The notes beneath the pieces are model-generated. The model saw only the letters and a program-made list of their open reading frames with translations, had not been told where the DNA came from and did not search any database. 40,194 bases of DNA, from the NCBI RefSeq assembly GCF_012912105.1, contig NZ_QMEA01000054.1:1-40194 (forward strand), given 5' to 3'. The translations under genes and the position numbers were made by a program. How positions within the stretch are numbered: position 1 is the stretch's first letter; each line of letters starts with the position of its first letter. The DNA is from Brasilonema sp. UFV-L1. GTDB lineage: Bacteria > Cyanobacteriota > Cyanobacteriia > Cyanobacteriales > Nostocaceae. Positions 1,641-39,684 of the stretch are shown in pieces.

Positions 1641-1666
1641 TCGTCAAAGAAAGATTTCTCTGACGA
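1641..1666. repeat. 26-nt palindrome, copy A
   Basis: Arms TCGTCAAAGAAA and TTTCTCTGACGA around spacer GA; one arm mismatch. It begins directly after the TAA of the chaperone extension. Confidence 0.85.
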
Positions 1667-1748
1667 GCTTGTAAGCTACCACCACTTATAAGCATACAGT
1701 CCCCTAACAACAGAAATCGTCATGGTACTGAAAACATAAACTTTTATG

Positions 1749-1786
1749 CTCTCTATGACGTAAAACATCACAGAGAGTTTCTTTTC
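1749..1786 (+). terminator. intrinsic terminator after tail chaperone gene
   Basis: Arms CTCTCTATGACG (1749-1760) and CATCACAGAGAG (1766-1777) pair at 10 of 12 positions plus wobble, with loop TAAAA, followed by TTTCTTTTC. It would separate the chaperone transcript from the tape measure gene. Confidence 0.6.
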
Positions 1787-2024
1787 GTAACTGCGTTGTT
1801 TTTGCGCTTTAAGGGGCTTATTTTTCTTCAAATGATAAAAACTACAGCAAGCACAATTAACCCTGGCTGTAAGTCACACTAGACCCCGCTAATAAAATGT
1901 TTCTTTTGACATTGCATCACAGGGCGCGGAAGAATGACCCTCATGAGTAATCTTGTTGTCAAAATGAATAATTTCTAATTTGTCTTTGTCGTTAGTCGCG
2001 TAATCGTGTATCGCTCTTTTCCTC

Positions 2025-2052
2025 TTGACAAAATTAAAGAACAAAGTATAAA
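2025..2052 (+). promoter_or_regulatory. candidate sigma70-type promoter for tape measure gene
   Basis: TTGACA at 2025-2030 and TATAAA at 2047-2052 are separated by 16 nt. It lies about 200 bases before the tape measure start. A perfect -35 box makes it the best promoter match I noticed in the tail segment, but the small hairpin at 2062-2078 follows it closely. Confidence 0.45.
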
Positions 2053-2176
2053 TACTCAGTCAGCGCGGTAGCGCTTTTGCATTGTGTGTTTCTTCGTTTT
2101 GTTTTCTTACGTTTTTTTTATTGAAGTGTGTATTCTTATGTGGGGGGTGCTATCCATGCTTGGACAATCCACCCCT

Positions 2177-2221
2177 GGATAACCCAAGGGTGGATGACCC
2201 AAGGGTGGATGACCCAAGGGT
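2177..2221. repeat. three tandem copies of a 15-bp repeat
   Basis: The unit is GGATGACCCAAGGGT; the first copy has one change (GGATAACCC). Each unit contains the near-palindrome ACCC-AA-GGGT. The array ends 3 bases before palindrome copy B. Confidence 0.8.
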
Positions 2222-2223
2222 GG

Positions 2224-2249
2224 TCGCTAACGAAAGATTTCCTTAACGA
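2224..2249. repeat. 26-nt palindrome, copy B
   Basis: Arms TCGCTAACGAAA and TTTCCTTAACGA around spacer GA; two arm mismatches. It ends 6 nt before the tape measure ATG, so its right arm lies where the ribosome would bind. Confidence 0.85.
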
Positions 2250-2255
2250 GGGCTT

Positions 2256-4583
2256 ATGGTAGCTAAAGTTATAATTCAAGTCCTGTCAGATGTTACAAAC
2301 GCGGTCGCAGGACTAGGAAAAGTAGGTGATGCAGCCGATGCAATGGGAGGGAAGTTAAAAGGCATAGGCGCAAGCATGACAGGCATAGGTCAACAGATGA
2401 CGGTTGGATTGACAGCGCCTATTGTTGCAGGATTAGGGCTTGCTACAAAGTCAGCAATGGACTTTGAAAAGCAGATGAGCGGCATTTCACGCGCTACAGG
2501 TGTCAAAGGTTTAGAAAGTGATATCAAGAGTTTATCAGCCCAGTTTGGTTTGTTACCACCGCAGTTTGGAGAGATAGCAGAAGAGGTAGCAAAGGCGGGT
2601 GTGACGGGTAAGGAAGCAATTCTAGGGATATCTCAAACAGTTGCTAAAGCTTCTGTCTTACTAGACTTACCTGCTAAAGAGACAGCAGAGGCATTTGGTA
2701 AAGTCTCTTCTGTCTACAATATGTCTTCCAAAGAAATAGAAAACTTTGCAGCAAAAATCAATTATCTGGGTGACGAGATAGGCGGTAAGGAGTCAGAAAT
2801 ACTCAAGATTGTTGCTGCTAGTGGTGCGACCGCATCAGCAGCAAAGATGAGTGCAGGTGAAATAACAGCGCTCGCTGCAACCTATGGACGTTTAGGCGTA
2901 GAGGCTTCTGTAGCGTCCAACTCAATCAAGGCTCAGGTCAATGCTATTTTCACAGCCTCGACAGGTAAGAGCAAAGAGCATAATGCTGTGTTGCAGCAAG
3001 TAGGGTTGAGCTATCAACAACTAGCTCAAATTATCCAGCAAAAAGGCATGAGCGGCGCAATTCTAGAACTGAACAACAGATTTAATCAGTTGCAAGGTAG
3101 TAGCAAGGCGCTCGCGATCGCATCCTTTTACGGCAATAACTACAATGACACAATCGGTGTAACTATTGACCGTACAGACTTACTCGCCCAGGCTTTTCAA
3201 AAAGCAGGTGACACTAGCGCCGCAGCCGCGAAAGCACAAAGAGAATGGGCGGAAACGCAGAAAACGACCGCTTATCAAGCTGGGGTCGTACAGTCCAAGC
3301 TTTACTCAATAGGTATCACAATTGGTGCTGCTATTTTACCTGCGGTCGCGTCGTTGCTGACAGCAGTCACGCCTTTGATTGACCAGTTTAGTAAGTTTGC
3401 AGAAGCTAATCCTAAGATAGTGCAACTTGGTGTAGCTTTCTTAGCGCTTGTAGCAGCAATTGGTCCTGTCCTAGTTGCAGTAGGTAGCGTTGTCTCAGCG
3501 GTAGGGGCTATTGGTACTGCTATAGGCGTAATTTCACCTATGATTGCAGGAATTGGTACTGCTATCACTGGTGTTGTTGCTGTTGTTGCTTCTGGTCCCG
3601 TGTTGATTGGTGTTGCTATAGCAGCGGTCGTCGCGGCGGTCGTTGCTGCTGGTGTTGCTATTTATCAAAACTGGGATTGGTTAAAATCTCAGGCGGGCGC
3701 TATCTGGAACGGGATAGCGAACGCAGTCAAAGGAGGAATTGACAACACTATCAACTTCATCAAACAGTTGCCTAATACAATTGCTTACGTAACTGGTTAC
3801 ATAGTTGGAGCGATCGCAACATTACCCGTGTCTATTATTGCTGTCATTGGCAAAATCATCACAGGCATTGTTGATGCTGGTCAGAAAATCAGCAGTACAG
3901 TTACTTCTGCAATGACAAGTGTTACCAACACTATCGGTAACATGATAAAGCAAGTTCCTAGCATTGTGTCTCAAGGTATTGATGCAATAGTGAACGCTTT
4001 TAAGCAATTACCTGGCGCTATTTCTAACGCTATGTCCTCAGCTATTAGTGCTGTTAAAAGTGCTCTTAGTCAGATTTCTCAAGCCGCTGCAAGTTTTGGA
4101 TCTACAATCGTTAATTCCTTAAAAAGTGCAGGTACAGGAATGATGAATAGTTTTGCTCAAGGCATTAGAGATGCAGCGAGCGCACCTTTTAACGCTATTC
4201 AAGAAGTTGTCAACAAAGTCCGCTCTTATCTTCCTAGTTCTGATGCAAAATTAGGCGCTTTATCTGACTTAACTGCATCCGGTAGCGCTTTATCAGCAAC
4301 TTTTGCTTATGGCATGAATAGCAATATTCGTACTGTAGAATCAGCCGCTTCTAATGTTGCAAATTCAGCTAGCTCAGCTATGGCTGTGACGCGAGCGCCA
4401 GCAATGCCCATAAGCGGTGGCTCAACAACAATTACTGTTAATTTTGAACCACAAATTACATTAACAGGCACAGCTACAACTGACGATGCAAAGAAATTGA
4501 TAGAAGCCCTTAGACCGTATGCGAGAGAACTTATATTGATGCTTGAGCAGTCAGGTAGCAGGATGACTCGCACAGCTTACTAG
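2256..4583 (+). CDS. phage tail tape measure protein (TP901 type, P2 gpT-like)
   Basis: A 775-residue protein of the PhageMin_Tail/TP901 family, which sets tail length and sits inside the tail tube. Residues about 60-335 hold the family core, including MDFEKQMSGISRATG, an Ala/Lys/Glu-rich helical region, and repeated SGATA/AATYGRLG-type stretches. About residues 388-468 are strongly hydrophobic, as in tape measure proteins that later insert into the host membrane. The rest is alternating amphipathic helix rich in Ala, Ser, Ile and Asn. The start at ATG 2256 fits the family N-terminus, and AACGAGGG just upstream can serve as ribosome site. The stop codon TAG overlaps palindrome copy C. In P2 the next gene is gpU; here gpU lies 25 kb away. 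Confidence 0.93.
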   Translation: MVAKVIIQVLSDVTNAVAGLGKVGDAADAMGGKLKGIGASMTGIGQQMTVGLTAPIVAGLGLATKSAMDFEKQMSGISRATGVKGLESDIKSLSAQFGLLPPQFGEIAEEVAKAGVTGKEAILGISQTVAKASVLLDLPAKETAEAFGKVSSVYNMSSKEIENFAAKINYLGDEIGGKESEILKIVAASGATASAAKMSAGEITALAATYGRLGVEASVASNSIKAQVNAIFTASTGKSKEHNAVLQQVGLSYQQLAQIIQQKGMSGAILELNNRFNQLQGSSKALAIASFYGNNYNDTIGVTIDRTDLLAQAFQKAGDTSAAAAKAQREWAETQKTTAYQAGVVQSKLYSIGITIGAAILPAVASLLTAVTPLIDQFSKFAEANPKIVQLGVAFLALVAAIGPVLVAVGSVVSAVGAIGTAIGVISPMIAGIGTAITGVVAVVASGPVLIGVAIAAVVAAVVAAGVAIYQNWDWLKSQAGAIWNGIANAVKGGIDNTINFIKQLPNTIAYVTGYIVGAIATLPVSIIAVIGKIITGIVDAGQKISSTVTSAMTSVTNTIGNMIKQVPSIVSQGIDAIVNAFKQLPGAISNAMSSAISAVKSALSQISQAAASFGSTIVNSLKSAGTGMMNSFAQGIRDAASAPFNAIQEVVNKVRSYLPSSDAKLGALSDLTASGSALSATFAYGMNSNIRTVESAASNVANSASSAMAVTRAPAMPISGGSTTITVNFEPQITLTGTATTDDAKKLIEALRPYARELILMLEQSGSRMTRTAY

Positions 4584-4606
4584 TTAAGGAAAGATTTCCT
4601 TAACGA
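4581..4606. repeat. 26-nt palindrome, copy C (perfect core)
   Basis: Arms GTTAAGGAAA and TTTCCTTAAC (4583-4592 and 4595-4604) are perfect complements around GA. The tape measure stop codon forms its first bases. The left edge of the 25-kb non-phage block follows immediately. Confidence 0.9.
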
Positions 4607-4616
4607 CACTATTAAG

Positions 4617-4636
4617 TTTTGGACTTTGGACAAAAA
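4617..4636 (+). repeat. 20-bp direct repeat S, left copy
   Basis: TTTTGGACTTTGGACAAAAA is identical to 39239-39258 and in the same orientation. It lies between palindrome C and the helicase fragment, so both copies mark a junction of phage-derived and other DNA. Confidence 0.75.
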
Positions 4637-4653
4637 TCACAAAGTTCGCGTTT

Positions 4654-5000: not shown

Positions 5001-5022
5001 TTGCCTGCTGGCGTCGGCTCAT

Positions 5023-19769: not shown

Positions 19770-20158
19770 ACCTGTTTAAATCTTATAACTTTTTCCGTTA
19801 AAAATGCTCAATTAAAGCCTGTTGTATGCTACTAAATTAATTGTTGAATACAGTTAGAGAATTTCAGTAATTGCTTAATTTCTACAACAGTGGCTTTTCA
19901 CAGAAAGTATTTTTATTCATATGTAGAAAATACTGCAGAAATTTTTATGAGACAGCAGAACTAGATTTTCTACTTGAGGTTGAAAACAATCCTATTCTAT
20001 CAACTTAGTTCTAAGAGACCATTATGTGCAGAAATTGGGAATTTCAGAAAAGGGATTAATGACCCATCTCAAAAGCTATTTTCTTGACTAGTTATACGTC
20101 ATAGAAGCAAACGCATAACAAACACAACAAAAACTTATTCTAAGGTGAGGAGCTTATC

Positions 20159-20311
20159 ATGATTTGGGTAACTAGACGGAGTAAACAGCCTCGTAAGCCT
20201 TTACGTTGCCGTAGTTATCAACGCTCCTTACAAAGTTTTTTGGGAGACAAACCCTCCAGAACAGTTTTGAATAGCTTTTCTGCAACTCTATCGATATATA
20301 AACCTATATAA
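20159..20311 (+). CDS. small basic protein of unknown function (50 aa)
   Basis: ATG at 20159 is preceded by a strong ribosome site, GTGAGGAG, at a spacing of 6 nt. It encodes a 50-residue peptide rich in Arg and Lys in its first half (around TRRSKQPRKPLRCRSYQRS) and Ser/Thr later. No family is recognised, and there is no signal peptide or membrane segment. It lies between the divergent NRPS and receptor operons, so it could be a small regulator, or the ORF could be chance. The ribosome site is the main argument in favour. Confidence 0.35.
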   Translation: MIWVTRRSKQPRKPLRCRSYQRSLQSFLGDKPSRTVLNSFSATLSIYKPI

Positions 20312-20459
20312 ACCTATTACAAACTCCTCATTCTTAGCAAGTAGATTTTTATATTTAATACTTATTAAATCTTACAATACGATAAGATATATTGATGAAA
20401 AAAGTTCTAACTTGAAGGCGTAAAAAATTTTCTCTAACCCCTTGATATGGGCAAATGAA

Positions 20460-20729: not shown

Positions 20730-21083
20730 ATTTTTCTCTAATGTTATAGGATTCCTATTTGATTTTTGAAAACTTTTCCAAGCACAAGTCAAGTCTTGCG
20801 ACGGCTTAAGCCTCAATATACTTACCAAGCATTAAACCGGATTTCCACTCCCGAACCGGTACAAGATTACGTATCTTTTTCTTGGTGTTCTTGGCGACGC
20901 CAGTCGCTTAGGCGTGAGAAACAAGGACTGCACCGTGCTGGCTCATCTTGACGGTATGCGCTCTTAGCGCGAGCGCATGAGCGTTCGTTAATAGGTAATC
21001 TACCCTACGGGAACGCAAGCGCGGCGTACGAGCGTGACAGGAGTATATAGCTGCAATGTGTTATTCAAGTGTGAGGAATTAGG

Positions 21084-23699
21084 GTGAAACAACAGAAACT
21101 ATCCACCTGGATATGGCTGTTTACAGCTGTATCAGTCTTAGGAGCTTTGCCAGTACGTGCTTCAGTTGTAAAAGTAACTGCTGTACAACACAAAATCGGG
21201 GTAACAAACGCACCAGCACCCATAAAAGACATTCCTCGACTGAGTGAGATTCAGCGCCCCTACACCAGTGTCAAGGACTGGGTAGCACAACAGACTCAGC
21301 AGAATCAAGTGATACAAGTGACAAGAGTGCGCCTTTCCCAAACAGCTAACGGTCTGGAAGTCATTTTAGAAACTTCTACATCTGATAAACTGCAAATCAC
21401 AATTAAGAGTGAAGGCAATAGCTTCATTGCAGATATCCCTAATGCTCAACTGCGGTTAACAAGTGGTGGTTTCTTCCGTCAACAAAAGCCTGTCACGGGA
21501 ATTACTGAAATAACGGTTACTAATATAGACGCAAATAGTATCCGGGTTACAGCGATGGGTGAGGCAAGTATACCAAAAGTTGAGTTGGACGACAGTAATG
21601 AAGGTTTAATTTTTGTCATCACACCAGTTATATCCTCTACACCACAAACAGATAAACCTAGTAATGAAAAACCATCGGAGTCGGCTCAAGAACCAATTGA
21701 ACTCGTTGTGACGGGTGAACAAGAAGGATACAATGTACCTGATGCTACAACTGCAACCCGGACAGATAATATACCATTACGTGATATTCCCCAGTCAATT
21801 CAAGTCATTCCGCGTCAGGTGATTGAAGACCGAAATGTCGTGCGTCTTTCGGAACTAGCGGATAATGTCAGTGGCGTACAACCTGAGCGTGGATATGGAG
21901 GTTTATCTTCATTAGGGTTCCGGGTACGCGGTTTTCTAACCAATTTTGAAACTTTACGCAATGGTTTTCCAGATTACGGTTACTTTAGTCCCCGAGATGT
22001 AGCCAATATTGAGCGCGTAGAGATTCTTAAAGGTCCAGCTGCGGTACTTTATGGTGGTAGTCCGACACAGTATGCAGGTGGGAGTGGTGTTGTCAACTCC
22101 ATTACCAAAAAACCCTTGTCACAGCCTTATTATAACGGAAATGTCACTTATGGAAGTTATAACTTTTTGCGTCCGACTTTAGATATTAGCGGACCGCTTA
22201 CAAATGACAAATCAGTGTTGTATCGTTTGAACGTCGCCTACGAAAGTGCTGACAGTTTCCGTGATTTTGTGGAGTATGACAGCTTCTTGATCTCGCCTGT
22301 TTTAGAGTGGAAGATAAGCTCACGCACCAAACTCACCTTTGAATACGAACACCAAAAATACAACTATACTTTTGATAATGGTTTTCCAATTGAGCCAGAA
22401 GTTCTCAAACTTCCTCGCAGTCGATTTTTAGGAGAACCCAATTTTGCTAATGGTGAAGTCACCTTTAACTCGTTTACGTATAACTTTGAACACCAATTTA
22501 GCAACAATTGGAAATTCCGCCAAGGATTTAATATTCTCAATGCTAATTTGAACGACGCAAAGCAGGTCTCTCCTGGTTCTTTGCAAGATGATCGCCGCAC
22601 CCTAAACCGTTCTTTCTACGCTTCCGATGAGGAACACGAAAACATCACGCTACAAAACGAAATTTCTGGCAAATTTTCTACTGGTCCTATTCGCCATAAC
22701 TTTCTGTTTGGGGTAGATTTAGCCCGAAACCTGTTTAACTACATTTTTGCACCAGACCAAGAATTATCAATAGATATTTATGACCCGCAATATGGTGGAA
22801 CTCCTACTCCCGTAGAGGGTGCTTCTCCCTTTGGTCGAAAAATCGTCTCCGAAAATGTCGGTGTTTTTGTACAGGATTCGATTGAACTTCTGCCGAATCT
22901 CAAACTATTGTTGGGTGGTCGCCTAGATTTTAACGATTACAGTACCAAAGACCGTGTGAAGGGAGAGACACTCAACGAACAATCAAATACGCGGTTCTCA
23001 CCACGAGTCGGAATTGTGTATCAGCCGAGTGATACCACTTCGCTTTACTTCAACTGGTCAAATGGTTTTTCTCCCCAGTTTCAAGCACGGAGTCGAACAG
23101 AAGAAGAATTTGAACCGCAAACCACCGAGCAATTTGAGGTAGGGGTTAAACAGAATTTTCTCAACAATAAACTTTTTGTAACTTTGGCATTCTTTCAAAT
23201 TACCAAGCAGAATGTACTGACACCAGATCCAGTAGATGACCTGTTCAATATCCAAACGGGAGAACAACGTAGCCGAGGTATTGAATTAGATATTGCAGGC
23301 GAAATATTACCAGGTTGGAAAGTGATTGCCAACTATGCTTACATTGATGGTACAGTGACGAAGGATAATGTGATTCCTGTAGGAGACAGATTATTTGGTG
23401 TCCCAGAACATAGCGCTGGATTGTGGACAACTTATGAACTTCAGGGTGGTAGTTTGCGAGGACTAGGATTTGGTGGTGGGTTATATTTTGTTGGTGAGCA
23501 AGAGGTAGATTTACCGAATACGTTTAAACTCGCAAGTTATGTGCGAGCCGATGCTTCTATCTTCTATCGGCGTCAAAATTATCGATTTGCGGTCAACTTC
23601 AAGAATATTTCTAATATTAAGTATTATGAGGTTGATGGGTACAGTATCGACCCTGCGCCACCGTTTACAGTGTTGGGAACAGTGTCACTTGAGTTTTGA
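21084..23699 (+). CDS. TonB-dependent siderophore receptor with AMIN domain
   Basis: An 871-residue outer-membrane receptor. Signal peptide 1-26 ends ALPVRA. An AMIN domain at about 75-180 is a common N-terminal addition in cyanobacterial receptors and probably anchors to peptidoglycan. The plug starts near residue 227 (RDIPQSIQVIPRQVIEDR, then VRVRGF-type motif), and a 22-strand barrel follows to the terminal Phe871 (LGTVSLEF). Start is GTG 21084 with GAGG about 8 nt upstream. It is first in an operon with binding protein, permease and ATPase genes and is divergent from the NRPS operon. Together they should import a ferric or other metal complex, probably of the compound made next door. The ligand is inferred from linkage. 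Confidence 0.93.
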   Translation: MKQQKLSTWIWLFTAVSVLGALPVRASVVKVTAVQHKIGVTNAPAPIKDIPRLSEIQRPYTSVKDWVAQQTQQNQVIQVTRVRLSQTANGLEVILETSTSDKLQITIKSEGNSFIADIPNAQLRLTSGGFFRQQKPVTGITEITVTNIDANSIRVTAMGEASIPKVELDDSNEGLIFVITPVISSTPQTDKPSNEKPSESAQEPIELVVTGEQEGYNVPDATTATRTDNIPLRDIPQSIQVIPRQVIEDRNVVRLSELADNVSGVQPERGYGGLSSLGFRVRGFLTNFETLRNGFPDYGYFSPRDVANIERVEILKGPAAVLYGGSPTQYAGGSGVVNSITKKPLSQPYYNGNVTYGSYNFLRPTLDISGPLTNDKSVLYRLNVAYESADSFRDFVEYDSFLISPVLEWKISSRTKLTFEYEHQKYNYTFDNGFPIEPEVLKLPRSRFLGEPNFANGEVTFNSFTYNFEHQFSNNWKFRQGFNILNANLNDAKQVSPGSLQDDRRTLNRSFYASDEEHENITLQNEISGKFSTGPIRHNFLFGVDLARNLFNYIFAPDQELSIDIYDPQYGGTPTPVEGASPFGRKIVSENVGVFVQDSIELLPNLKLLLGGRLDFNDYSTKDRVKGETLNEQSNTRFSPRVGIVYQPSDTTSLYFNWSNGFSPQFQARSRTEEEFEPQTTEQFEVGVKQNFLNNKLFVTLAFFQITKQNVLTPDPVDDLFNIQTGEQRSRGIELDIAGEILPGWKVIANYAYIDGTVTKDNVIPVGDRLFGVPEHSAGLWTTYELQGGSLRGLGFGGGLYFVGEQEVDLPNTFKLASYVRADASIFYRRQNYRFAVNFKNISNIKYYEVDGYSIDPAPPFTVLGTVSLEF

Positions 23700-23729
23700 T
23701 TCCCAGAACCATTCAAACGAGAGTTGTGT

Positions 23730-24758
23730 GTGAGTAAATTACGTCACTATGTTTGGATACTTAAACCCTTTGTTGCAGTCTTGGCAGTGCTGATGATGGG
23801 ACTGGTCTCAGGGTGTGAAACAAATGTTGTTAAATCAACTGATACTGCCTCTAAAGCAGCAAAAGACACACCAGTTACACTTAAAAATTGTGACTTGACG
23901 ATTACCTACAAACAACCACCACAACGCGCTGTCACGATGATGCAATCTGCAACGGAGGTCATGCTAGCGCTGGGTTTAGAAAAGCACATGGTTGGTACAG
24001 CCTACCTGGATAATCCGATTTTGCCGGAGTATCAACAGGCATATTCGCAAATTCGAGTTTTAGCGCCGAAGTACCCGTCACGGGAAGTTTTTTTGGGGGT
24101 TGAACCGGATTTTGTGTTTACCACTGAGGAAAGTGCTTTTGCCAAAGAAGCACTTGGCTCACGAGAAGAGTTGGTCAAATTAGGTATTTCCTCTTATTTA
24201 CTGCCCATTGAATGCGATCGCCCAGAACTTAGACCATCACGTGTCACGATGGAGAATTTATATCAGGAGATAAAGGATATTGGGCGTATTTTTAGAGTAG
24301 AAGAACGGGCACAGCAGTTAATTGCTCAATTGCAAGCACAACTACAAGAAACTCAACAAAAGCTAGGCAAGGTGACAACTAAGAAGCGTATATTTTGGTA
24401 CGATTCCGAAGACCCTCCCCTAACTGTTTCTAACTGGGGAATGCCAAATCACATCATTGAACTAGCAGGTGGAGAAAATATTTTCAAAGATATCCAGAAA
24501 AAAGAAGCATGGGTGAGAGTTAATTGGGAAGATGTCATTGCGCGTCAACCTGATGTGATTGTTCTCATCGATGCTAGCTGGTCACCCGCATCCGAAAAGC
24601 GTCGATTACTTAAATCTAACCCTGCTTACTCCCAGCTAAAAGCAGTGCAACAGGATAAATTCATTGTCTTAGGCTTCAGCTACACGATGCCAGGAATTCG
24701 GAATGTCGCAGGGGTGAGAAAATTAGCTCAAGCTTTGTACCCAGAGAGGTTTAAGTGA
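23730..24758 (+). CDS. siderophore/cobalamin-type ABC transporter substrate-binding lipoprotein (FecB/BtuF-like)
   Basis: A 342-residue periplasmic binding protein of the class III (FecB/BtuF) fold. From GTG 23730 there is a lipoprotein signal with lipobox LVSGC (Cys29). Typical features follow: PQRAVTMMQSATEVMLALGL, a long linking helix around AQQLIAQLQAQLQETQQKLG, and WEDVIARQPDVIVLIDA in the second lobe. TTG 23724 is an alternative start, but GAGAG at 23719-23723 is better spaced for 23730. It starts 30 bases after the receptor stop and would hand the metal complex to the FecCD-type permease downstream. Confidence 0.9.
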   Translation: MSKLRHYVWILKPFVAVLAVLMMGLVSGCETNVVKSTDTASKAAKDTPVTLKNCDLTITYKQPPQRAVTMMQSATEVMLALGLEKHMVGTAYLDNPILPEYQQAYSQIRVLAPKYPSREVFLGVEPDFVFTTEESAFAKEALGSREELVKLGISSYLLPIECDRPELRPSRVTMENLYQEIKDIGRIFRVEERAQQLIAQLQAQLQETQQKLGKVTTKKRIFWYDSEDPPLTVSNWGMPNHIIELAGGENIFKDIQKKEAWVRVNWEDVIARQPDVIVLIDASWSPASEKRRLLKSNPAYSQLKAVQQDKFIVLGFSYTMPGIRNVAGVRKLAQALYPERFK

Positions 24759-24824
24759 TGGATTTCGGGCAGATGAGAAGACGCAAAGAGGATTTACTAA
24801 CTAATGACTATTGACTAATAACGA

Positions 24825-25886
24825 ATGATTAATCCAGTACCAAAGCATCTGAGAAAAAACAAGCAGCAACGCTACAAGCTGCTAACGGTGGCAATGCTTG
24901 TGATGTTGTTGGTTTCTATAACTTTGGCGGTGATGATTGGACCTGTGCCTATTTCCCCTTTGAGGGTATGGCAGATAGCTTTATCCCAAGTATTTCCAAA
25001 TGTTACAGGAGACTGGACGCAAGCACAAGTTCAAATTGTTTGGCTCATCCGCTTTCCGCGTGTGTTGCTGGCTTTTTTTGTGGGCGCTGGACTATCAGTG
25101 GTTGGTGTCACCATGCAAGCACTGGTGCGAAATCCTCTCGCTGACCCCTTTATTCTCGGTATTTCCTCTGGCGCATCGGTGGGTGCTGTTTTAGCCATCC
25201 TGTTTGGTGTTTTCTCATTTTTTGGTGTGTATGCACTGTCCGTTGGGGCTTTCCTTGGTGCGCTTTTGGCATTCGTTGTTGTTTTCTTCTTAGCACGACG
25301 ACAAGGACGCATCTCCTCTACACGCTTAATCCTAGTTGGTGTGGCAGTATCATATCTGTTTGAGGCGGTAACAAGTTTCTTGGCTATCAAAGCCGGAAGT
25401 GGCGAAGCTACACGACGAGTGTTGTTCTGGTTGTTGGGAGGACTTTCGGGAACAAAATGGACAGACCTGATCCTGCCAGTGCTGGCTTTGTCAGTTGGAA
25501 TAGGGTACTTGTTACTCCAGACGCGATCGCTCAATGCACTCCTCATCGGTGAAGAAACAGCTCGGACTTTAGGAACCGATACCGATAGCCTCCGCAAGCA
25601 GTTGTTCTTAGTGACATCACTATTAACAGGTGTGATAGTTGCTGTCGGTGGTGCCATTGGCTTCGTTGGGCTAATGATTCCTCACAGCGTCCGTTTCATG
25701 GTTGGCTCAGACCATCGTCGCGTGTTACCTGTGAGTCTGCTGCTGGGTGGAATTTTCCTAATTTGGGCAGATGTACTGGCACGGACTTTGGTTGCTCCAG
25801 AGGAAATTCCTATCGGCATTATCACAGCGCTGTTCGGAGCTCCCTTTTTCATCTGGTTGATGCAAGCTAAAGGGGGTAGAAAATGA
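24825..25886 (+). CDS. FecCD-family ABC transporter permease
   Basis: A 353-residue inner-membrane protein with about nine to ten membrane segments, the usual length for FecCD/BtuC permeases. Family motifs are visible: RFPRVLLAFFVGAGLSVVG, ALVRNPLADPFILGISSGAS and GAIGFVGLMIPHSVRFMVG, the last being the coupling region for the ATPase. Its stop overlaps the ATPase start by 4 bases (ATGA), so the two are translationally coupled. It likely works as a homodimer with the adjacent binding protein and ATPase. Confidence 0.95.
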   Translation: MINPVPKHLRKNKQQRYKLLTVAMLVMLLVSITLAVMIGPVPISPLRVWQIALSQVFPNVTGDWTQAQVQIVWLIRFPRVLLAFFVGAGLSVVGVTMQALVRNPLADPFILGISSGASVGAVLAILFGVFSFFGVYALSVGAFLGALLAFVVVFFLARRQGRISSTRLILVGVAVSYLFEAVTSFLAIKAGSGEATRRVLFWLLGGLSGTKWTDLILPVLALSVGIGYLLLQTRSLNALLIGEETARTLGTDTDSLRKQLFLVTSLLTGVIVAVGGAIGFVGLMIPHSVRFMVGSDHRRVLPVSLLLGGIFLIWADVLARTLVAPEEIPIGIITALFGAPFFIWLMQAKGGRK

Positions 25887-26653
25887 AGTTAGAGGTAAAA
25901 AACCTATCCTGGAGTACTGAGGGAAAGCAGATTTTGTCTGATATCAATCTGGAGGTGTCGTCGGGTGAATTTGTTGGGCTGATTGGTCCCAATGGCAGTG
26001 GTAAGTCAACTTTGCTCAGATGTATTTATCGTGTCCTCAAGCCAAATACCGGAGTTATTACCCTCAATGGTAAAAATGTCTGGCATCTGAGTGCCCGTGA
26101 AATGGCACAAGCTACCGCAGTTGTTTTGCAGGAAACACCTACTGAGTTTGACTTTACTGTTGAAGAAATGGTGTGGATGGGGCGTAATCCCCATCAAGGG
26201 TTATTTGACCGCGAGACAGAAAAAGACCACAGTATCGTTCTAGGTGCTCTTGAGCAGGTGGGGCTTTCTACCTTTGCCGAAAGAAGTTTTGCTTCCCTTT
26301 CTGGTGGGGAGAAGCAGCGGGTTTTGATTGCACGAGCGATCGCCCAGCAAGCCCGTTTCCTCGTTCTTGATGAGCCAACAAATCATCTCGATATTCGCTA
26401 CCAGTTAGAACTCTTGGAACTGGTAAAGGGACTAGGTGTGACTACCCTCGCCGCCTTGCATGATTTAAACCTTGCAGCTACGTACTGCGATCGCATCTAT
26501 GTGCTCAAGGAAGGAACCATCGCCGCAGCAGGCAAACCCCAAGTGCTACTGCAACCAACTCTCATCCGGGAGGTGTTTGGGGTGGGATCTGTTGTTGCGC
26601 GGGACTCGCGCACGGATAAATTACGCATCACCTTCTTTCTGGAAGAGACTTAA
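25883..26653 (+). CDS. FecE/FhuC-type ABC transporter ATPase
   Basis: A 256-residue cytosolic ATPase. Walker A is GPNGSGKST (35-43), signature LSGGEKQ (139-145), Walker B FLVLDEP (159-165), followed by D-loop NHLD and switch His in ALHDLN. It belongs to the iron-siderophore/heme/cobalamin subfamily. It is the last gene of the uptake operon; no clear terminator follows, only a GC-rich repeat stretch at 26755-26785. Confidence 0.95.
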   Translation: MKLEVKNLSWSTEGKQILSDINLEVSSGEFVGLIGPNGSGKSTLLRCIYRVLKPNTGVITLNGKNVWHLSAREMAQATAVVLQETPTEFDFTVEEMVWMGRNPHQGLFDRETEKDHSIVLGALEQVGLSTFAERSFASLSGGEKQRVLIARAIAQQARFLVLDEPTNHLDIRYQLELLELVKGLGVTTLAALHDLNLAATYCDRIYVLKEGTIAAAGKPQVLLQPTLIREVFGVGSVVARDSRTDKLRITFFLEET

Positions 26654-26886
26654 GAAGGCAGAACACTTTGACGACTGGTGGCTGACCTACACTAGAACCT
26701 TCTATCTGGCTAGAGTATAGCAATTTGAGCGTGAGCGCGAATCTTTTTAGTTTTTCTGGCGTTGCGGCGCAAGCGTAACTACAAGCGAAGTTTGACAGTC
26801 TGTCTTTTGACGCCAAGTGCAATGAACAAGAGAATGATGAAGGAAATTCTACCGAATAAGCCTTTTTTGTAGAGAGAGAACACAGA

Positions 26887-27222
26887 ATGAAAAAAATTCT
26901 TTCAGTATTGTTGCTGAGCATAGCAATTTTCACGCTCGCCTTCAATTGTCCAGCTCTTGCAGGAGATGCAGCTAAAGGAGCGAAAATCTTCAGTGCCAAT
27001 TGTGCTCAGTGTCATGCGGGTGGAAAGAACCTAGTTAACGCTGCCAAAACCTTGAAAAAAGAGGCTTTGGAAAAGTATGGCATGTACTCAGAGGAAGCTA
27101 TTATTGCCCAAGTGACAAAAGGTAAAGGTGCCATGCCCGCTTTCAAAGGTCGTTTGAAACCTGAGCAAATTGAAGATGTCACAGCATACGTGCTGGGAAA
27201 AGCTGATAAGGGATGGAAGTAA
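26887..27222 (+). CDS. petJ: cytochrome c6 precursor
   Basis: A 111-residue precursor of the soluble photosynthetic electron carrier that replaces plastocyanin between cytochrome b6f and photosystem I (or oxidase) under copper shortage. The signal peptide ends at ALA25, giving an 86-residue mature protein, typical for c6. Heme attachment is C39-A-Q-C42-H43, and the distal ligand is Met83 ([10 protein letters not shown]). The C-terminus ([11 protein letters not shown]) is characteristic. It points to a thylakoid-lumen or periplasmic location. A PetR-like regulator lies 1.7 kb downstream, which fits known copper control of petJ. Confidence 0.96.
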
Positions 27223-27684
27223 AGCCCAAATCAGACTGTTGTTCAGTAAATAAGCTGTCGTGCATATAAGAATGCACACAGCTAGGGGCTAGACGACTCG
27301 CGCTGACTGGTTTCTTCCGGATTGAATTCGCGTAAAGTCCGTGCCTTGAGGGCATATTTTGAATTGCTTAGTAGGTAGGGCATATACCAATACGCTTGGG
27401 ATAAGAAGTTGACGAGTGAAGGTAAGCAGAGGGGCGGAGGTGCGCAGGTGCGCAGGGGAAAGAATTATTGGACAATAACTCTTTTTCTCCTCTGCTCCCC
27501 AATACTCGCTTCGCTCTCTACCCCATCCCCTAGTAGTGTCTCAACGAATAAATGTCTTAACTGAACGGTGTTGGGGCATATACCTTACCAACTGCTCTTG
27601 TTGTGCTAGCAACGTGACGCCCGTCTTACACGAAAAAAACGGGCAGCACCGTTTGCGTAGCGCCCCCTTCGGGGCTAGGTTCCT

Positions 27685-27704
27685 CAACGGGGGGAACCCC
27701 CGCA
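27685..27704. repeat. GC-rich interspersed repeat, second copy
   Basis: CAACGGGGGGAACCCCCGCA, identical to 10847-10866, with the internal palindrome GGGGG-AA-CCCCC offset by one G. Confidence 0.75.
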
Positions 27705-27806
27705 CGGAACTTCTCGCTTAATACGATAGTCGTATTGTGTCCTCGATTAATCGTGTTAGCGGAGCGGAACGTAGTTCAGCTTCAAAGCCACGAGGGTCTA
27801 ACACGA

Positions 27807-27907
27807 AATTTTTGGGCAGCCTTACTACAACGAGTACTCGTGATGCCAACACAGATCAACAAAACGTTCAGCGAAGCCTGCCGTTAGGCATAGGCTGCCC
27901 AAAAATT
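27807..27907. repeat. 101-bp unit with perfect 15-bp inverted ends
   Basis: AATTTTTGGGCAGCC at 27807-27821 and GGCTGCCCAAAAATT at 27893-27907. It is too short to encode protein and resembles a small MITE-like element or its remnant. Confidence 0.6.
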
Positions 27908-27959
27908 AGGGGACAATGCGACGCCCGTTTTTTAGGGGACAAATTGGTGAGAAACACTT

Positions 27960-28889
27960 ATGAACGGCTTGTTTCAATTGATTCTCAATTTTGGTATTGC
28001 TGTTGTACTCGCCTGTTGTTTTCTCGCTTCACCTGTATACTCATCACCTAACCCCAGCACCAATATCACAGCAAGCAACTTTTTCAAGTTGGGGGTAGAA
28101 AATATGCAAAACAGCAATTACCAAGAAGCGATTATAGATTTCTCTGGGGCGATTCGGCTAAAAAGAGATTTTGCTGTAGCCTACAGCAACCGATGCCTTG
28201 CTTATCTCGAATTAGCAGATTATCTCAATGCCATTGCCGATTGCAATAAAGCTCTAATTTTTACACCAAACAATGTTGAGGCTTATCTCAATCGGGGACT
28301 TGCCCACTTAAGACAAGGAGATTATACTGCAGCAATTGCTGATAACAATCAAGTCATTGCACTCAAACCTCATGATTTCAGAGCTTACTACAACCGAGGA
28401 GTAACCCGCGCCACGCTGGGGAATTACCAACAAGCAATATCAGATTATAATCTGGCATTAACTCAAATTCCCCAGACATCTAATTTACTCCTGGCGGATA
28501 TTTACAATGACCGAGGACTTGCTCGTTTTCAGTTGTCAGACTTACAATTGGCTATGCTCGACTTCTCAAAGGCAATTCGTCTGAATTCCGATGACTACAG
28601 AGCTTACTACAATCGGGGTTGTGCTTGTGGTAGAAGTGGGGATAACTTTTGTGCAATTAGAGATTTTACTGAATCAATCAGACTTTACCCAACTAATGCC
28701 CAAGCTTATCTTAACCGGGGTATAGCCTACCATCAGCTTGGTTATGAACAAGCTGCAATTGCAAACTTACAAAAGGCGGTTAAATACTTTGCTTCAATAG
28801 GAGAAACTGTGGCATATGACAAAACTTTAGATTACCTTCAGAATTTACGACAACAACTTCTAACCTTATCATCCATTGCTCTTATTTAA
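27960..28889 (+). CDS. secreted TPR-repeat protein
   Basis: A 309-residue protein with an N-terminal hydrophobic signal (about 1-28, ending SPVYS) and about six to seven tetratricopeptide repeats from residue 38 to 290. Repeats carry the cyanobacterial pattern AYxNRGxAxxxxGDYxxAIxDxxxAI. TPR arrays bind proteins, so a periplasmic or lumenal scaffold role is likely. It lies between petJ and the petR-like gene, but I see no specific link to electron transport. The start ATG 27960 has GGTGAGAA 7 nt upstream. Confidence 0.85.
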   Translation: MNGLFQLILNFGIAVVLACCFLASPVYSSPNPSTNITASNFFKLGVENMQNSNYQEAIIDFSGAIRLKRDFAVAYSNRCLAYLELADYLNAIADCNKALIFTPNNVEAYLNRGLAHLRQGDYTAAIADNNQVIALKPHDFRAYYNRGVTRATLGNYQQAISDYNLALTQIPQTSNLLLADIYNDRGLARFQLSDLQLAMLDFSKAIRLNSDDYRAYYNRGCACGRSGDNFCAIRDFTESIRLYPTNAQAYLNRGIAYHQLGYEQAAIANLQKAVKYFASIGETVAYDKTLDYLQNLRQQLLTLSSIALI

Positions 28890-28954
28890 GTTTGGCTGGC
28901 TTTTATTCTGTTGCTCAACAAATATATAAAGGTTCCTGCGAATAATCTATCATT

Positions 28955-29419
28955 ATGTCTCCTTTACCTAAATATTGTCCCAAGCAACTTTCCTTAGGTC
29001 CTTTGGAGAAAGAAATTTTGCACATCATGTGGGAACTTGGTTGCGTCACCGTTAAAGATGTGCATAAACGCATTTTGTCTGACCCAAAGCGACGGCTAAC
29101 CTCTGCTTCAGTAACAACTATCCTCAATCGTTTGACTAAAAAAGGTTGGCTTGTATGCAATAAAGAGAGTCGTCGGAATTACAGATGGCAACCACTGGTA
29201 TCCCAGAAAGAGGCGCGAATACTCCAGGCGAATGAGCAGTTGCATCAATTCTTGGCAGTGGGACATCCTGATGTGGTTGCAGCCTTTGCCGATAGCCTAG
29301 AGCAAGCCAGTGTGGAACAGTTTGAGGCGATCGCCCAAAAAATACAAGCACTTCGCCCAGTCAGAGACTCATACCTTTTAGAGCAAAATGGACAGACGAG
29401 TAATACTAAACTTTGCTAG
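28955..29419 (+). CDS. petR: BlaI/MecI-family repressor, PetR-like
   Basis: A 154-residue winged-helix regulator. The N-terminal domain reads LGPLEKEILHIMWELGCVTVKDVHKRI, then the recognition helix region SASVTTILNRLTKKGWL, typical of BlaI/CopY. The C-terminal half (VGHPDVVAAFADSLEQASVEQFEAIAQ) matches my recollection of cyanobacterial PetR. With the membrane protease PetP, PetR controls petE and petJ by copper in Synechocystis. Closeness to petJ supports this. No petP gene follows: phage-derived DNA starts within 170 bases of the stop. The symbol is a family-level inference. Confidence 0.75.
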   Translation: MSPLPKYCPKQLSLGPLEKEILHIMWELGCVTVKDVHKRILSDPKRRLTSASVTTILNRLTKKGWLVCNKESRRNYRWQPLVSQKEARILQANEQLHQFLAVGHPDVVAAFADSLEQASVEQFEAIAQKIQALRPVRDSYLLEQNGQTSNTKLC

Positions 29420-29585: not shown

Positions 29586-29611
29586 CAGTTAAAGAAATCT
29601 TTCTCTAACGA
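29586..29611. repeat. 26-nt palindrome, copy D
   Basis: Arms CAGTTAAAGAAA and TTTCTCTAACGA around spacer TC. It ends 9 nt before the gpU-like start codon; its ACGAG edge may contribute to ribosome binding. It marks the right edge of the 25-kb non-phage block. Confidence 0.85.
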
Positions 29612-29620: not shown

Positions 29621-30016
29621 ATGCCACTTTCAGCAGGTTCTTTCGGTTCGATTACATTTGTGGTTCCAGAAATCATGAATACAGAGTATGAAGAGTACGC
29701 CGAATACATTCAAGTTCCAGTAATAAACGGCTACCCGCGCTTGCATAAAATGGGTGACCCTCTTTATGAATTTAACTTAACAGTGAGATTTGATTCAGGT
29801 TTCCCAGGCTTAAGTTACAATACTTCTGCAAAAGACAAACTTGACTTGTTAAGAGCGGAAATAGGAAACACAACGCCCAAGGTGTTAACGCTCAACGGTG
29901 TCAATTTGGGCAATTACTTAGTTAAAAAAATAAACTGGACTGTTTTGCAGACAGCAGGTACAGGTAAACCTATCAAAATAGATGCCAAAGTAATATTTCT
30001 AGCTAATCCTGTATAA
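29621..30016 (+). CDS. phage tail protein, P2 gpU-like
   Basis: A 131-residue protein resembling the P2 gpU family, which terminates the tail at the head-proximal end or helps tail completion. Visible pattern: GSFGSITFVVPE near the N-terminus, a HKMGDPLYEFNLTVRFDSGF stretch, and short beta-rich segments to the C-terminus. The next gene starts 2 bases after its stop, so they are co-translated. In P2, the tape measure gene precedes gpU directly; here it lies upstream of the 25-kb block on the same strand. Identification rests on motif impression plus gene order. Confidence 0.65.
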   Translation: MPLSAGSFGSITFVVPEIMNTEYEEYAEYIQVPVINGYPRLHKMGDPLYEFNLTVRFDSGFPGLSYNTSAKDKLDLLRAEIGNTTPKVLTLNGVNLGNYLVKKINWTVLQTAGTGKPIKIDAKVIFLANPV

Positions 30017-30018: not shown

Positions 30019-31038
30019 ATGCCTGTTAAAAAGCCAATTTTTTCTAGTGTTGTCATCAATGCCGCGACCGCTACAGTATCCATAGGCGCTCACATAAGCA
30101 ACTTTAGCTATACAGAAATCTGGGGTGCTGCTGCAAGCCATTTTGAGTTTGACTTGGCTGATAGCGCAACTATTAAACCTACTATAGGAGACTATCTGGA
30201 AATCAAGTTTAAGTATGCTGATGACCCAGCAGCAAATCTAGTCAATACAGGCACAATGCGAGTCGATGATACTGTACGTAGATATGACTATCCTTTACTT
30301 TCCATAGGAGCGAACGCTTTTGACTACAATCTAGGTAATAGAATTCCAATTAGTTATACCAACGCAAGTATTAGAGCAATTGTAGAAACACAATCAAGTG
30401 TATTTGGCTTGTCTCTTCCAGATTTAGATACAATATCAGGTGCAATAGCAGGCACTAGCACTAATGTGACTGACCCTAAAGTGGAAAAAGCAGAAAGTCG
30501 AGCCGAGATGCTTGCATTACTTGCTAGGAAATATGGCTATTTCTTCAATCTTTACTTAGGACAATTGATTTTCAGAGATATTAGTATTTTAGAGTCTCAA
30601 CCAGCGGCTAGAGTCCTCACAAAATCTGATGTCTGTAACGATGTAGTACCGCAGTCACGCAAAACAACATCAGGTAATTATAGAAATGCTCAAGTGACTT
30701 ATAACAATGGTGGTTCACCAGCTACAGGAATCTATACAGCGACCGCTGATGATGGAGCGTTAACTAACAACACGATTAACTTATCATCGGAAGGATACTA
30801 TAACAATTTTGACTCAGCAAGTCGTAGAGGTTACGGACAAATTAAAGAGAGCAACAGAAACTGGAATAGAATGTCAATATCTTGTGAAGGTCACTATTTG
30901 CTTAGAGTTGGTAATGTGGTACAACTAGCAGACTTTTATCCTGATTATGGATTCTGGTTAATAGAACAAGCTGTACATACAATCAGAAAATCTGATGGTT
31001 GGCGAACGCAGTTAGACTTAAGATACATAAGTCTTTGA
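30019..31038 (+). CDS. phage tail hub protein, P2 gpD-like (late control D family)
   Basis: A 339-residue protein. The N-terminal half is beta-rich and opens with the swapped-barrel type layout of hub proteins (NFSYTEIWGAAASHFEFDLAD, then GDYLEIKFKY). A middle helix-strand region (ESRAEMLALLARKYGYFFNLYLGQLIFRDI) is typical of GPD/VgrG-like hubs, where the residue pattern marks the second domain. The C-terminus (LLRVGNVVQLADFYPDYGFWLIEQAVHTI) matches the end of the family. The protein would form the trimeric baseplate hub. No gpX-type gene separates it from gpU, unlike P2. Confidence 0.8.
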   Translation: MPVKKPIFSSVVINAATATVSIGAHISNFSYTEIWGAAASHFEFDLADSATIKPTIGDYLEIKFKYADDPAANLVNTGTMRVDDTVRRYDYPLLSIGANAFDYNLGNRIPISYTNASIRAIVETQSSVFGLSLPDLDTISGAIAGTSTNVTDPKVEKAESRAEMLALLARKYGYFFNLYLGQLIFRDISILESQPAARVLTKSDVCNDVVPQSRKTTSGNYRNAQVTYNNGGSPATGIYTATADDGALTNNTINLSSEGYYNNFDSASRRGYGQIKESNRNWNRMSISCEGHYLLRVGNVVQLADFYPDYGFWLIEQAVHTIRKSDGWRTQLDLRYISL

Positions 31039-31039: not shown

Positions 31040-31065
31040 TCGATAAGGAAAGATTTCTTTGACGA
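31040..31065. repeat. 26-nt palindrome, copy E
   Basis: Arms TCGATAAGGAAA and TTTCTTTGACGA around spacer GA. It begins 1 nt after the hub gene stop codon. Confidence 0.85.
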
Positions 31066-31093: not shown

Positions 31094-31119
31094 TCGTCTG
31101 AGAAATCTTTCCTTAACGT
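31094..31119. repeat. 26-nt palindrome, copy F
   Basis: Arms TCGTCTGAGAAA and TTTCCTTAACGT around spacer TC. It lies 28 nt after copy E, with only AT-rich sequence between them. Confidence 0.8.
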
Positions 31120-37591: not shown

Positions 37592-37641
37592 GGGTATATG
37601 TAGTGCTTGGATCGGGTTGCTAATTGCCTTTGCGATTGTTT

Positions 37642-38310: not shown

Positions 38311-38332
38311 AGCCGTCTTTCTTTTCCATACT

Positions 38333-38365
38333 TGTCATTTAATGACAAAATGACACTAAATGACA
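38333..38365. promoter_or_regulatory. twin palindromic operators upstream of TetR gene
   Basis: TGTCATTTAATGACA (38333-38347) is a perfect 7-bp dyad around one base. TGACACTAAATGACA (38351-38365) repeats it with one arm changed. The spacing of 18 bp centre to centre suits two repressor dimers. They start 23 bases before the TetR ATG. Confidence 0.75.
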
Positions 38366-38577
38366 TACCTCGCAAGAGGTAGCTTTGCCGACAGTGTTAT
38401 TGAACTTAGGACTGATGCTTTTGTGCGAGATTGTGATAGCGCCACAAGGATTAGGTCGTTAAAACTCGATCGCTGATATCAGCTCAGGTGTATGAACCGA
38501 ATCAGAGGTACAACTCTTGGTTAGCACTCGCCAAACACTTTGTTTTGCAGGAATACATCCTGAATTTTGCAGATCAT

Positions 38578-38958
38578 TTACGCCGCGCTGCTAGTTTCAT
38601 CCTTGTCCTCAGTTTTGATCACGAAAGCCCTTAATTCGATAATCTTGTCGCCGCGAAAGCGCCAGATGTCGCAGTACGAGTAATCAGACGCCTTCCCGTC
38701 TTCGTCCTTGATTGTTATGTCGCCGAGTGCCGTGACGAAATCACCCTCAGCGATTAAGTTAGCGACCATAAACTTTGGCGGCTCTACGTATGTCGTTGCC
38801 ATCCATTGGCGAACGGCTTCTTTTCCTTTAAGGGTCTTGTCGCCTACAAACGTCCAATGCGTGTCGTCGGCGCAGAACGACAAGAATCCTTCATTGTTGC
38901 CTGAGCGCAATCGCCGCGTTTGCCTCTTCTAAGATTGCTTTATTTTTATCTGACATCT
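38578..38958 (-). pseudogene. NTF2/SnoaL-like protein, single frameshift near 38905
   Basis: The start ATG 38958 has a strong site AGGAGAG and gives MSDKNKAILEEANAAIA, then a stop. The rest continues in another frame from about 38910: GNNEGFLSFCADDTHWTFVG, KGKEAVRQWMATTY, and DYSYCDIWRFRGDKIIELRAF, which is a complete SnoaL/NTF2-like fold of about 125 residues. One base gained or lost separates the halves. It may be a real broken gene or a sequence error. Members are small alpha-beta proteins with varied or unknown functions. Confidence 0.7.
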
Positions 38959-39072
38959 GAATCTCTCCTCTGTTCAAGTGGATGCTTTAACGGAGCGGGA
39001 GCGGTTTTTCTGTTGGCGTGTCCTTCTCCTTAGCGTAGCCGCCGAATCATCCCGTTGCCGCTTGTGCAAAAC

Positions 39073-39234
39073 TCACGGAACAATTGCAGTGACGCGGATT
39101 TCAATACGCATTTTTGGAAGTCCAAGAGCTGCAACTCCTACCTCTGTCCAAATTGGGGCATGGTTGGGCATGTAATGACGAAATAGCTTGACCATCACAT
39201 CGTTAACCTCTGGAGGAAATCCTCCAACATGGTA
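39073..39234 (-). pseudogene. C-terminal fragment of a RidA (YjgF) family protein
   Basis: Fifty-three residues (from YHVGGFPPEVNDVMVK to MRIEIRVTAIVP) match the second half of RidA-type imine deaminases, including the PNHAPIWTEVGVAAL strand. The N-terminal half is missing. The break, at about 39235, lies next to direct repeat S and the phage-type HNH gene, so it marks the right end of the 8-kb block. Confidence 0.7.
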
Positions 39235-39238
39235 AGAA

Positions 39239-39258
39239 TTTTGGACTTTGGACAAAAA
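39239..39258 (+). repeat. 20-bp direct repeat S, right copy
   Basis: TTTTGGACTTTGGACAAAAA, identical to 4617-4636. It separates the RidA fragment from the HNH gene. Confidence 0.75.
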
Positions 39259-39279
39259 AGTATTGTTCTTGCCATTCAA

Positions 39280-39684
39280 TCACTTTTTATCACCTTCTTT
39301 GTCGCTACGGAAAGATTTCTTTGACGTGGGTTTACGTTTACGCTTGGCTCTTGTCTTAGCAGCGTTCGCGGCGTGAAACTTTGCATCATATCTAAGATGG
39401 CAGACTGAGCAAAGGGCTTTTAGATTACTAGCTGCATTATTGGTCGTGTCATGGTCTAAGTGCGCGGTCGTTAACACAAATCGGATTTTCTTTTCGCAGC
39501 ATTCCAGATAGAGAGCTTTGGATTTCTTAGCTAATCTGTATTTGAATTCGTCCCATGACTCATTAGGACGACGGCAAGGACGTTGGCACTCTTGACAAGT
39601 CCAGTCAGCGTTAGTCTTGACAGCAAGCGCTATTGACTTCCAATCAGGCGGGTACTTCTTCCGATTCATCGGCATTTTTGTCAA
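39280..39684 (-). CDS. HNH endonuclease, phage type
   Basis: A 134-residue basic protein. The zinc pairs are C30-x2-C33 and C92-x2-C95 followed by His96; the HNH core is AHLDH (75-79), Asn87 and CHxxYD. The tail is Lys/Arg-rich. Such genes lie near terminase genes of phages or act as homing enzymes. Palindrome copy G lies within its last codons and so contributes SKKSFRSD to the protein. Ribosome site not evident. Confidence 0.85.
   Translation of the reverse strand: MTKMPMNRKKYPPDWKSIALAVKTNADWTCQECQRPCRRPNESWDEFKYRLAKKSKALYLECCEKKIRFVLTTAHLDHDTTNNAASNLKALCSVCHLRYDAKFHAANAAKTRAKRKRKPTSKKSFRSDKEGDKK
39302..39327. repeat. 26-nt palindrome, copy G (inside HNH gene)
   Basis: Arms TCGCTACGGAAA and TTTCTTTGACGT around spacer GA. 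It is the only copy that lies inside a coding sequence, near the HNH gene's 3' end. Confidence 0.8.

Follow-up and report, generated by a model that had tools for sequence, protein, structure and literature searches.

A network of putative protein-binding palindromes in a cyanobacterial plasmid prophage

A 40,194-nt stretch of DNA from Brasilonema sp. UFV-L1 (NZ_QMEA01000054.1, hereafter the window) carries seven copies of a 26-bp palindrome. The host draft assembly comprises 337 contigs that total 8.31 Mb, and the window is its contig C287. Comparison with related genomes places the seven copies in a well-supported network of putative protein-binding sites in a plasmid prophage. The palindromes are probably genome-wide predicted binding sites of one dimeric protein of a temperate, plasmid-living phage, which the protein would silence. 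An earlier note on the window had proposed hairpins, operators for one phage regulator or dispersed mobile repeats, and the second of these is the reading that the sequence evidence favors. Silencing as the function of the sites, and a ParB-like protein as their binder, are what we infer from that evidence.

All seven copies were found where the earlier note had placed them, at 1641, 2224, 4581, 29586, 31040, 31094, and 39302. Each has the form 12+2+12, and the 2-nt centers were read correctly as GA in five copies and TC in two. A strict consensus with up to 3 mismatches recovers 3 of the seven (against 0 in 100 shuffles), and a degenerate half-site score of at least 19 returns exactly these seven in the window, with a shuffle mean of 0.0 (n = 20). 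With a model built from the host's own genome the copies score E values of 2.5e-7 to 3.7e-5 on the + strand; these values are not independent, as all seven are among the 12 training sequences. A repeat finder grouped five of the palindromes as one family and detected the remaining two as inverted partners. Between 7 and 11 of the 12 arm positions form Watson-Crick matches in each copy. The nonribosomal peptide synthetase (NRPS), transport, and protease blocks are free of palindromes at a half-site score of at least 19, in agreement with the earlier note. Two score-18 look-alikes at 1886 and 33811 (shuffle average 0.4) and a single 11.6-bit model match at 22919 (E = 1.5) were left uncounted. 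The copies are described below with reference to the circular 76,644-bp plasmid AP018265.1 (AP) from Scytonema NIES-4073 and to contig C25 of genome G006 (G006:C25), a 61-kb relative.

1641-1666, + strand: type I palindrome, center GA; TAA immediately 5'; AP018265.1 homology stops here (AP 44332 site)
2224-2249, + strand: type I palindrome, center GA; ends 6 nt 5' of the tape-measure ATG; the equivalent place is occupied in AP018265.1 (43728) and G006:C25 (20059)
4581-4606, + strand: type I palindrome, center GA; overlaps the tape-measure stop; left edge of a 25-kb block
29586-29611, + strand: type I palindrome, center TC; ends 9 nt 5' of the GpU-like ATG; right edge of the 25-kb block
31040-31065, + strand: type I palindrome, center GA; 1 nt 3' of the D-like stop; G006:C25 homology stops 2 nt beyond it
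31094-31119, + strand: type I palindrome, center TC; 28 nt beyond palindrome 31040; AP018265.1 counterpart at 39840, none found beside the G006:C25 site, where the flank differs
39302-39327, + strand: type I palindrome, center GA; within the 3' end of an open reading frame (ORF) at 39280-39684 on the - strand

The distribution of the palindrome in the host genome follows the phage. A 26-column model was built from 12 copies, of which seven are those of the window and five lie outside it in the host genome, and 150 of 12,184 candidates were scored. At E < 0.01 this gave 31 distinct places, 12 of them the training copies, on contigs C287 (7), C331 (12), C109 (4), C85 (4), C81 (1), and C36 (3). 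These six contigs total 124 kb, or 1.5% of the assembly, and all six align to AP018265.1. The restriction to phage-derived DNA that had been claimed for the window therefore extends to the host genome, where 31/31 matches lie on phage-aligned contigs. An even scatter over ordinary chromosomal genes, which by the earlier note would have refuted the restriction, was not seen in the host.

AP018265.1 is termed a phage-plasmid because a circular plasmid here carries phage structural and replication genes together with parA and an integrase gene; its content includes a large terminase, a tail sheath (annotated), a tape measure, an O-like replication protein, parA (annotated), and the integrase. Its tape measure is the only one above 60% identity to that of the window among the 35 plasmid records with a match. 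AP018265.1 holds 28 sites (shuffles average 0.1), and G006:C25 holds 26. Twenty of the 28 are intergenic, 6 overlap gene ends, and 2 lie within genes; 17 are within 30 bp of a gene border, and one falls in a block classed as cargo. The pooled type I half-site of AP018265.1 is TCGTTARRGAAA, with its last three A invariant in 56/56 halves. Among 119 genomes, the host's own included, 15 gave a model match at E ≤ 0.01. The site-rich ones are the host, G006 (mainly contig C25), and G063 (contig C3), with 56, 43, and 38 matches when both strands are counted, and the sites of G063:C3 share coordinates with those of AP018265.1. The stray matches in G002 belong to a sister phage, and the best match in G001 falls in a fragment with the same sequence as window 39240-39398. 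In a viral collection, one half-site pattern gave a single match in each of 24 contigs and more than one in none, a result that resembles chance. The same collection holds ten relatives of the tape measure, 23-39% identical. A lone strong type I site was also noted on G006:C116 (locus L057, 12182-12207), 45 nt 5' of an ORF labeled by eye as ATPase-like, on a contig with no match to AP018265.1.

Sister phages carry sites with other spellings. In G002:C15 (52.4 kb) and G005:C351 the structural and replication genes are mostly 35-68% identical in protein to those of AP018265.1. The model search found no type I match in G005, and in G002:C15 type I scores of at least 19 are confined to 16105, 16379, 16536, and 19158, around a parA-integrase module. 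A motif search without a preset pattern instead returned a type II palindrome, SGTTAYSGTAA-NN-TTACSRTAACS, in both phages, with 21 sites in G002:C15 (0-1 in each of ten shuffles) and 24 in G005:C351, within 119.5 of its 143.2 kb. A third spelling, type III (GGGTNGTRCAA-AT-TTGYACNACCC), occurs in G002:C3 (77.8 kb, 25-52% identity). With this pattern, which was tuned on G002:C3 itself, a score of at least 18 finds 15 sites there, against no more than one in any of six other sequences or 20 shuffles; at score 16 the counts are 22 in G002:C3, 2-7 in other sequences, and 2-6 in shuffles. Aligned by eye, the half-sites of types I, II, and III correspond over 11 positions round a 2-bp center (11-2-11). 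The center differs between types (GA; CG/AG; AT) and also within them.

The positions of the type II sites agree with those of AP018265.1. This comparison excluded the parA-integrase module and the NRPS proteins. In G002:C15, orthologous gene borders carry a type II site at 14/23 places where AP018265.1 has a site and at 4/33 where it has none (Fisher p = 1.7e-4); the corresponding figures in G005:C351 are 16/26 and 5/44 (Fisher p = 1.6e-5). The border test counts twice a site that lies between two tested genes, which per-site counts avoid. Counted once, 13 of the 19 testable AP018265.1 sites have a counterpart in G002:C15 and 15 of 21 have one in G005:C351. The alignments show a predicted half-site that changed in concert across sister phages while many of its positions were kept.

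The parA-integrase module of G002:C15 (locus L067, 7241-11136) contains a PIN-domain gene and its neighbor, the integrase, a ribbon-helix-helix (RHH) gene, and parA, with 93-99% protein identity to AP018265.1. Judged by its type I sites and by the lower identity across the rest of this phage, we read the module as a recent swap. A palindrome-bearing 62-bp fragment from a cytosine methyltransferase gene (AP018265.1 55913-55974) recurs upstream of the G002:C15 integrase (L067 8372-8433), and an identical palindrome stands at a similar place in G006:C25, at 12088.

The two arms of the palindrome vary independently. In 36 non-redundant sites, a set that includes a few low-scoring matches that may be due to chance (such as G002:C15 8537 in L067), 318 Watson-Crick pairs were counted, against 314.4 expected when right arms were shuffled among sites (p = 0.29); with wobble the figures are 346 and 345.6 (p = 0.49). 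The sites of AP018265.1 alone gave p = 0.50 (0.82 with wobble), and the type II sites p = 0.36 with or without wobble. For the seven window copies the earlier note had described partly compensated arm changes. This was not borne out, as 64/84 positions are paired against 64.9 expected after the shuffle (p = 0.72), or 69 against 69.4 when G-U pairs are allowed (p = 0.75), and no set showed an excess of compensatory changes. Independent arms argue that the palindrome is not an RNA hairpin; the simplest reading is a pair of half-sites to which a dimeric DNA-binding protein would attach. Each half is conserved as a half-site in its own right, a pattern that suits a symmetric protein on duplex DNA and not a folded RNA.

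The best candidate for such a protein is encoded on AP018265.1 as follows.

AP018265.1 8692-11052: gene for a ParB-like protein, best candidate binder

This gene is bracketed by sites in AP018265.1, G002:C15, G005:C351, and G002:C3, with site centers 68-84 bp upstream and 20-26 bp downstream. The protein of AP018265.1 is 41-43% identical to its relatives in the type II phages and about 23-25% identical to the type III relative. It matches the PHROG family 'ParB-like partition protein' (phrog_4715, E = 9e-8), relatives occur in all lineages, and no Pfam family was matched; the type II protein has a weak match to Pfam ParB_N (E = 0.075). Neither the ParB-like protein nor the product of AP018265.1 15719-16873 had a match in a PDB sequence search up to E = 1. 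On these grounds the ParB-like protein is the likeliest single binder, a candidate that we put forward tentatively, and small RHH-like proteins (AP018265.1 15129-15377, 15382-15627, and 12635-12781) are alternates. The 93-99% identity of ParA, its RHH partner, and the integrase between AP018265.1 and G002:C15, two phages in which most sites differ, makes these three poor candidates. Separately, motifs had suggested that the product of AP018265.1 15719-16873 is an annealing protein, which the libraries searched did not support.

Each 26-bp site comprises two half-sites round its 2-bp center, and a phage-plasmid of this kind holds about 25-30 such sites, mostly at gene borders. Under the favored explanation, a protein bound at many gene borders would silence the phage genome in the plasmid state, either by blocking elongation in the manner of stoperators or by spreading or sliding as KorB does. 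In a secondary role, the repeated sites may serve as short stretches of common sequence where blocks of genes are swapped, the host/NRPS block of the window perhaps among them.

The known system that these sites most resemble, by analogy, is the palindromes of the Cluster O mycobacteriophages, such as Corndog. Each of these phages has 34 dispersed 17-bp palindromes, which are absent from the two host genomes checked there, and their positions are mostly kept among relatives, with some insertions and deletions ascribed to recombination between sites (PMC4351075). The same report describes asymmetric central bases that bear little relation to transcription and an inferred dimeric binder of unknown identity, with three predicted DNA-binding proteins including the ParB-like gp90 (PMC4351075). 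Dozens of palindromes, their absence from the host chromosome, kept positions, an asymmetric center, and a ParB-like protein are shared with the sites described here. The Cluster O palindromes are 7-3-7 with nearly invariant arms, whereas ours are 12-2-12 with degenerate arms; about a third of them lie inside genes, whereas 26/28 of the AP018265.1 sites lie at or between gene ends; and no stable lysogens were recovered for those phages (PMC4351075), whereas the present sites lie on a plasmid. Three lineage-specific spellings are a further difference. The Cluster O sequence given there, TGTTCGGNNNCCGAACA, is not matched by the half-sites of any of the three types, so that the system is alike and the repeat is another one.

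Cluster A stoperators offer a second comparison. For these, 20-30 repressor sites per genome are described, with similar but distinct motifs in each lineage, one site near the repressor gene, and mostly no association with promoters (PMC6550527; PMC9283540). The copy number is similar here, but stoperators are described there as asymmetric and oriented with transcription, while the present sites are symmetric, and where the flanking genes of AP018265.1 are co-directional the centers read 6 GA, 6 TC, and 7 other. By this analogy the site set would work like stoperators yet fails their defining asymmetry. In RK2, KorB is described as a ParB-family protein that acts on a plasmid from operators (OB) near to or far from promoters (PMC11790492). 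A ParB-like protein on a plasmid is the candidate regulator here. A point of difference is that OB is described as a 16-bp silencer that works with KorA (PMC11790492). Many short palindromic sites that flank gene blocks on one plasmid also recall the pdif/dif modules of Acinetobacter, which are Xer sites of mobile modules, whereas gene order here is stable. No description of the present sites appeared among the titles listed in literature searches, which does not prove that none exists.

Several observations weigh against silencing by one regulator. Position agreement between type III and AP018265.1 sites is not significant (6/11 against 4/17 borders, p = 0.1; 4/11 against 4/15 with a 12-site set, p = 0.46). 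Conservation of the GA/TC center (24/36 non-redundant type I sites) exceeds what a simple operator needs, and its orientation in AP018265.1 is unrelated to transcription, unlike that of stoperators. Promoter-like sequence is not enriched near the AP018265.1 sites (p = 0.12), and promoter-linked operators were rejected for this reason. Twelve other relatives have 1-5 weaker stray matches each, some on chromosome-sized contigs. The Cluster O authors doubted that their comparable repeats act in transcription (PMC4351075). Finally, in the type III phage the relative of the ParB-like protein has a match to the Pfam Dam methyltransferase family (E = 1.6e-6), and the protein may therefore have a function other than regulation.

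The Dam match also makes a more elaborate version slightly less likely, in which a ParB-like clamp loads at 20-30 intergenic sites and both silences and maintains the plasmid prophage, sites and protein are rewritten together in each lineage to give immunity groups, and the sites serve as joints for host clusters such as NRPS. As a whole this proposal is unlikely. It is also unlikely that the sites are parS-like centromere or compaction sites, at which a ParB-like protein loads in many places for partition or condensation with no main role in transcription. Phage N15, which has dispersed sites, is the comparison for such an arrangement. A circular plasmid with parA and an RHH partner would suit it, as would a phrog_4715 protein whose gene is bracketed by sites and the spread of sites across the backbone. 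Partition does not, however, need close placement at gene ends, and the likely partition pair of ParA with its RHH partner is near-identical between two phages in which most spellings differ.

The sites may instead be crossover sites of a phage site-specific recombinase that shuffles or acquires gene cassettes, which we regard as improbable. The relevant features of the window are listed here.

2256-4583, + strand: phage tail tape-measure gene, 96.8% amino acid identity to AP018265.1
4607-29585: non-phage block between palindromes 4581 and 29586
29621-30016, + strand: phage P2 GpU-like tail gene
30019-31038, + strand: late-control D-like tail gene, 22-25% identical to phage D proteins and 97% to AP018265.1
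31258-39398: second non-phage block, including palindrome 39302, largely present in G001:C3

Stretches of ordinary bacterial genes lie between the phage tail genes of the window. A single palindrome separates neighboring tape-measure and GpU-like genes in AP018265.1 (41371) and in G006:C25 (17702). In the window a 25-kb block parts the two genes, a palindrome stands at either edge of it, and the single site is the counterpart of both 4581 and 29586. Downstream of the D-like gene, the homology of AP018265.1 and the window to G006:C25 stops 2 nt past the palindrome. The D-like protein matched no Pfam family; it is found in 5/119 genomes at E ≤ 1e-10 and in 4 records of the phage collection at 22-25% identity. 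Comparison of AP018265.1 with eight other sequences gave 63 unique block ends, 13 of them within 30 bp of a site, against 2.0 in a shift null (p = 2e-4) and 6.9 in a random gene-border null (p = 0.008). The excess over gene borders is modest, and the test is built on BLAST block ends, so that alignments can stop at the edges of conserved sites without a crossover.

These joints and breakpoints speak for recombination, as does the 12-2-12 layout with its conserved asymmetric center. The layout of hix/gix sites is 12-2-12, and that of Xer/pdif sites is 11-6-11. No Resolvase-family (PF00239) match was found on the site-rich phage-plasmid contigs of G000, G006, G063, G002, and G005, and serine recombinase sites of the hix/gix kind were rejected on that basis; such a match is present on G043:C5, which has one lone site. 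A tyrosine integrase is present in AP018265.1 but is near-identical between phages with different sites, the gene order of AP018265.1 and G006:C25 is collinear despite about 25 sites, and the center varies between and within types. The two sites that flank the 25-kb block have opposite center orientation. Exact copies of TTGGACTTTGGACAAA stand at window 4619-4634 and 39241-39256, 12 nt from palindrome 4581 and 45 nt from palindrome 39302. This sequence looks like an insertion sequence (IS) terminal repeat, and such IS-like ends would be another route to the joints of the window.

Other observations concern the cargo and the ends of the contig. Window 19301-29367 is syntenic with G006:C217 (84-94%), the synteny stops 218 nt before palindrome 29586, and a large part of the 25-kb block probably comes from the host. 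NRPS genes occur in AP018265.1 29165-38227 (annotated) and in window 4607-29585 (an earlier label), at different phage joints, and the window NRPS region has DNA similarity to the AP018265.1 NRPS gene. A 159-bp stretch with palindrome 39302 (window 39240-39398) is 100% identical at locus L071, 19031-19189, on G001:C3, a 915-kb contig of a strain of the same genus. The stretch opens with an IS-like end and is followed by a second one, and the same cargo genes adjoin it in G001:C3. Window 1-960 holds, by eye, an apparent transposase gene at the contig start, and one short ORF there matches phrog_17599, whose function is unassigned. The window end (40170-40194) and the start of contig C109 both depart from the AP018265.1 alignment, at 22778/22780, where an insertion may split the phage. 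An ORF on G000:C331 (locus L003, 7263-8555), which presumably resembles IscB, breaks the alignment to the AP018265.1 replication region.

Dispersed mobile palindromes, of the kind the earlier note mentioned from Nostoc genomes, are a very improbable explanation. Many similar copies exist, lone ones occur on G006:C116 and G043:C5/C8, and 12 other relatives have their few stray matches. All host matches are nevertheless on phage contigs, positions are conserved in phages whose spellings differ and whose proteins are mostly 35-68% identical, and clean gain or loss of a lone 26-mer was not seen in the flank alignments inspected. RNA hairpins for transcript processing, termination, or antitermination are the least credible reading of all, for despite dyad symmetry and gene-border positions the loop is just 2 nt, there is no orientation bias, and arm covariation is absent from every set.

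Mycobacteriophages with tens of dispersed palindromes have already been described, with no binder known (PMC4351075). The lineages found here, in which positions are kept and spelling has changed, make the partnership of site and protein directly testable. If silencing through these predicted sites is true, it would explain how cyanobacterial phage-plasmids stay silent, and the sites would mark likely joints for the capture of natural-product genes.

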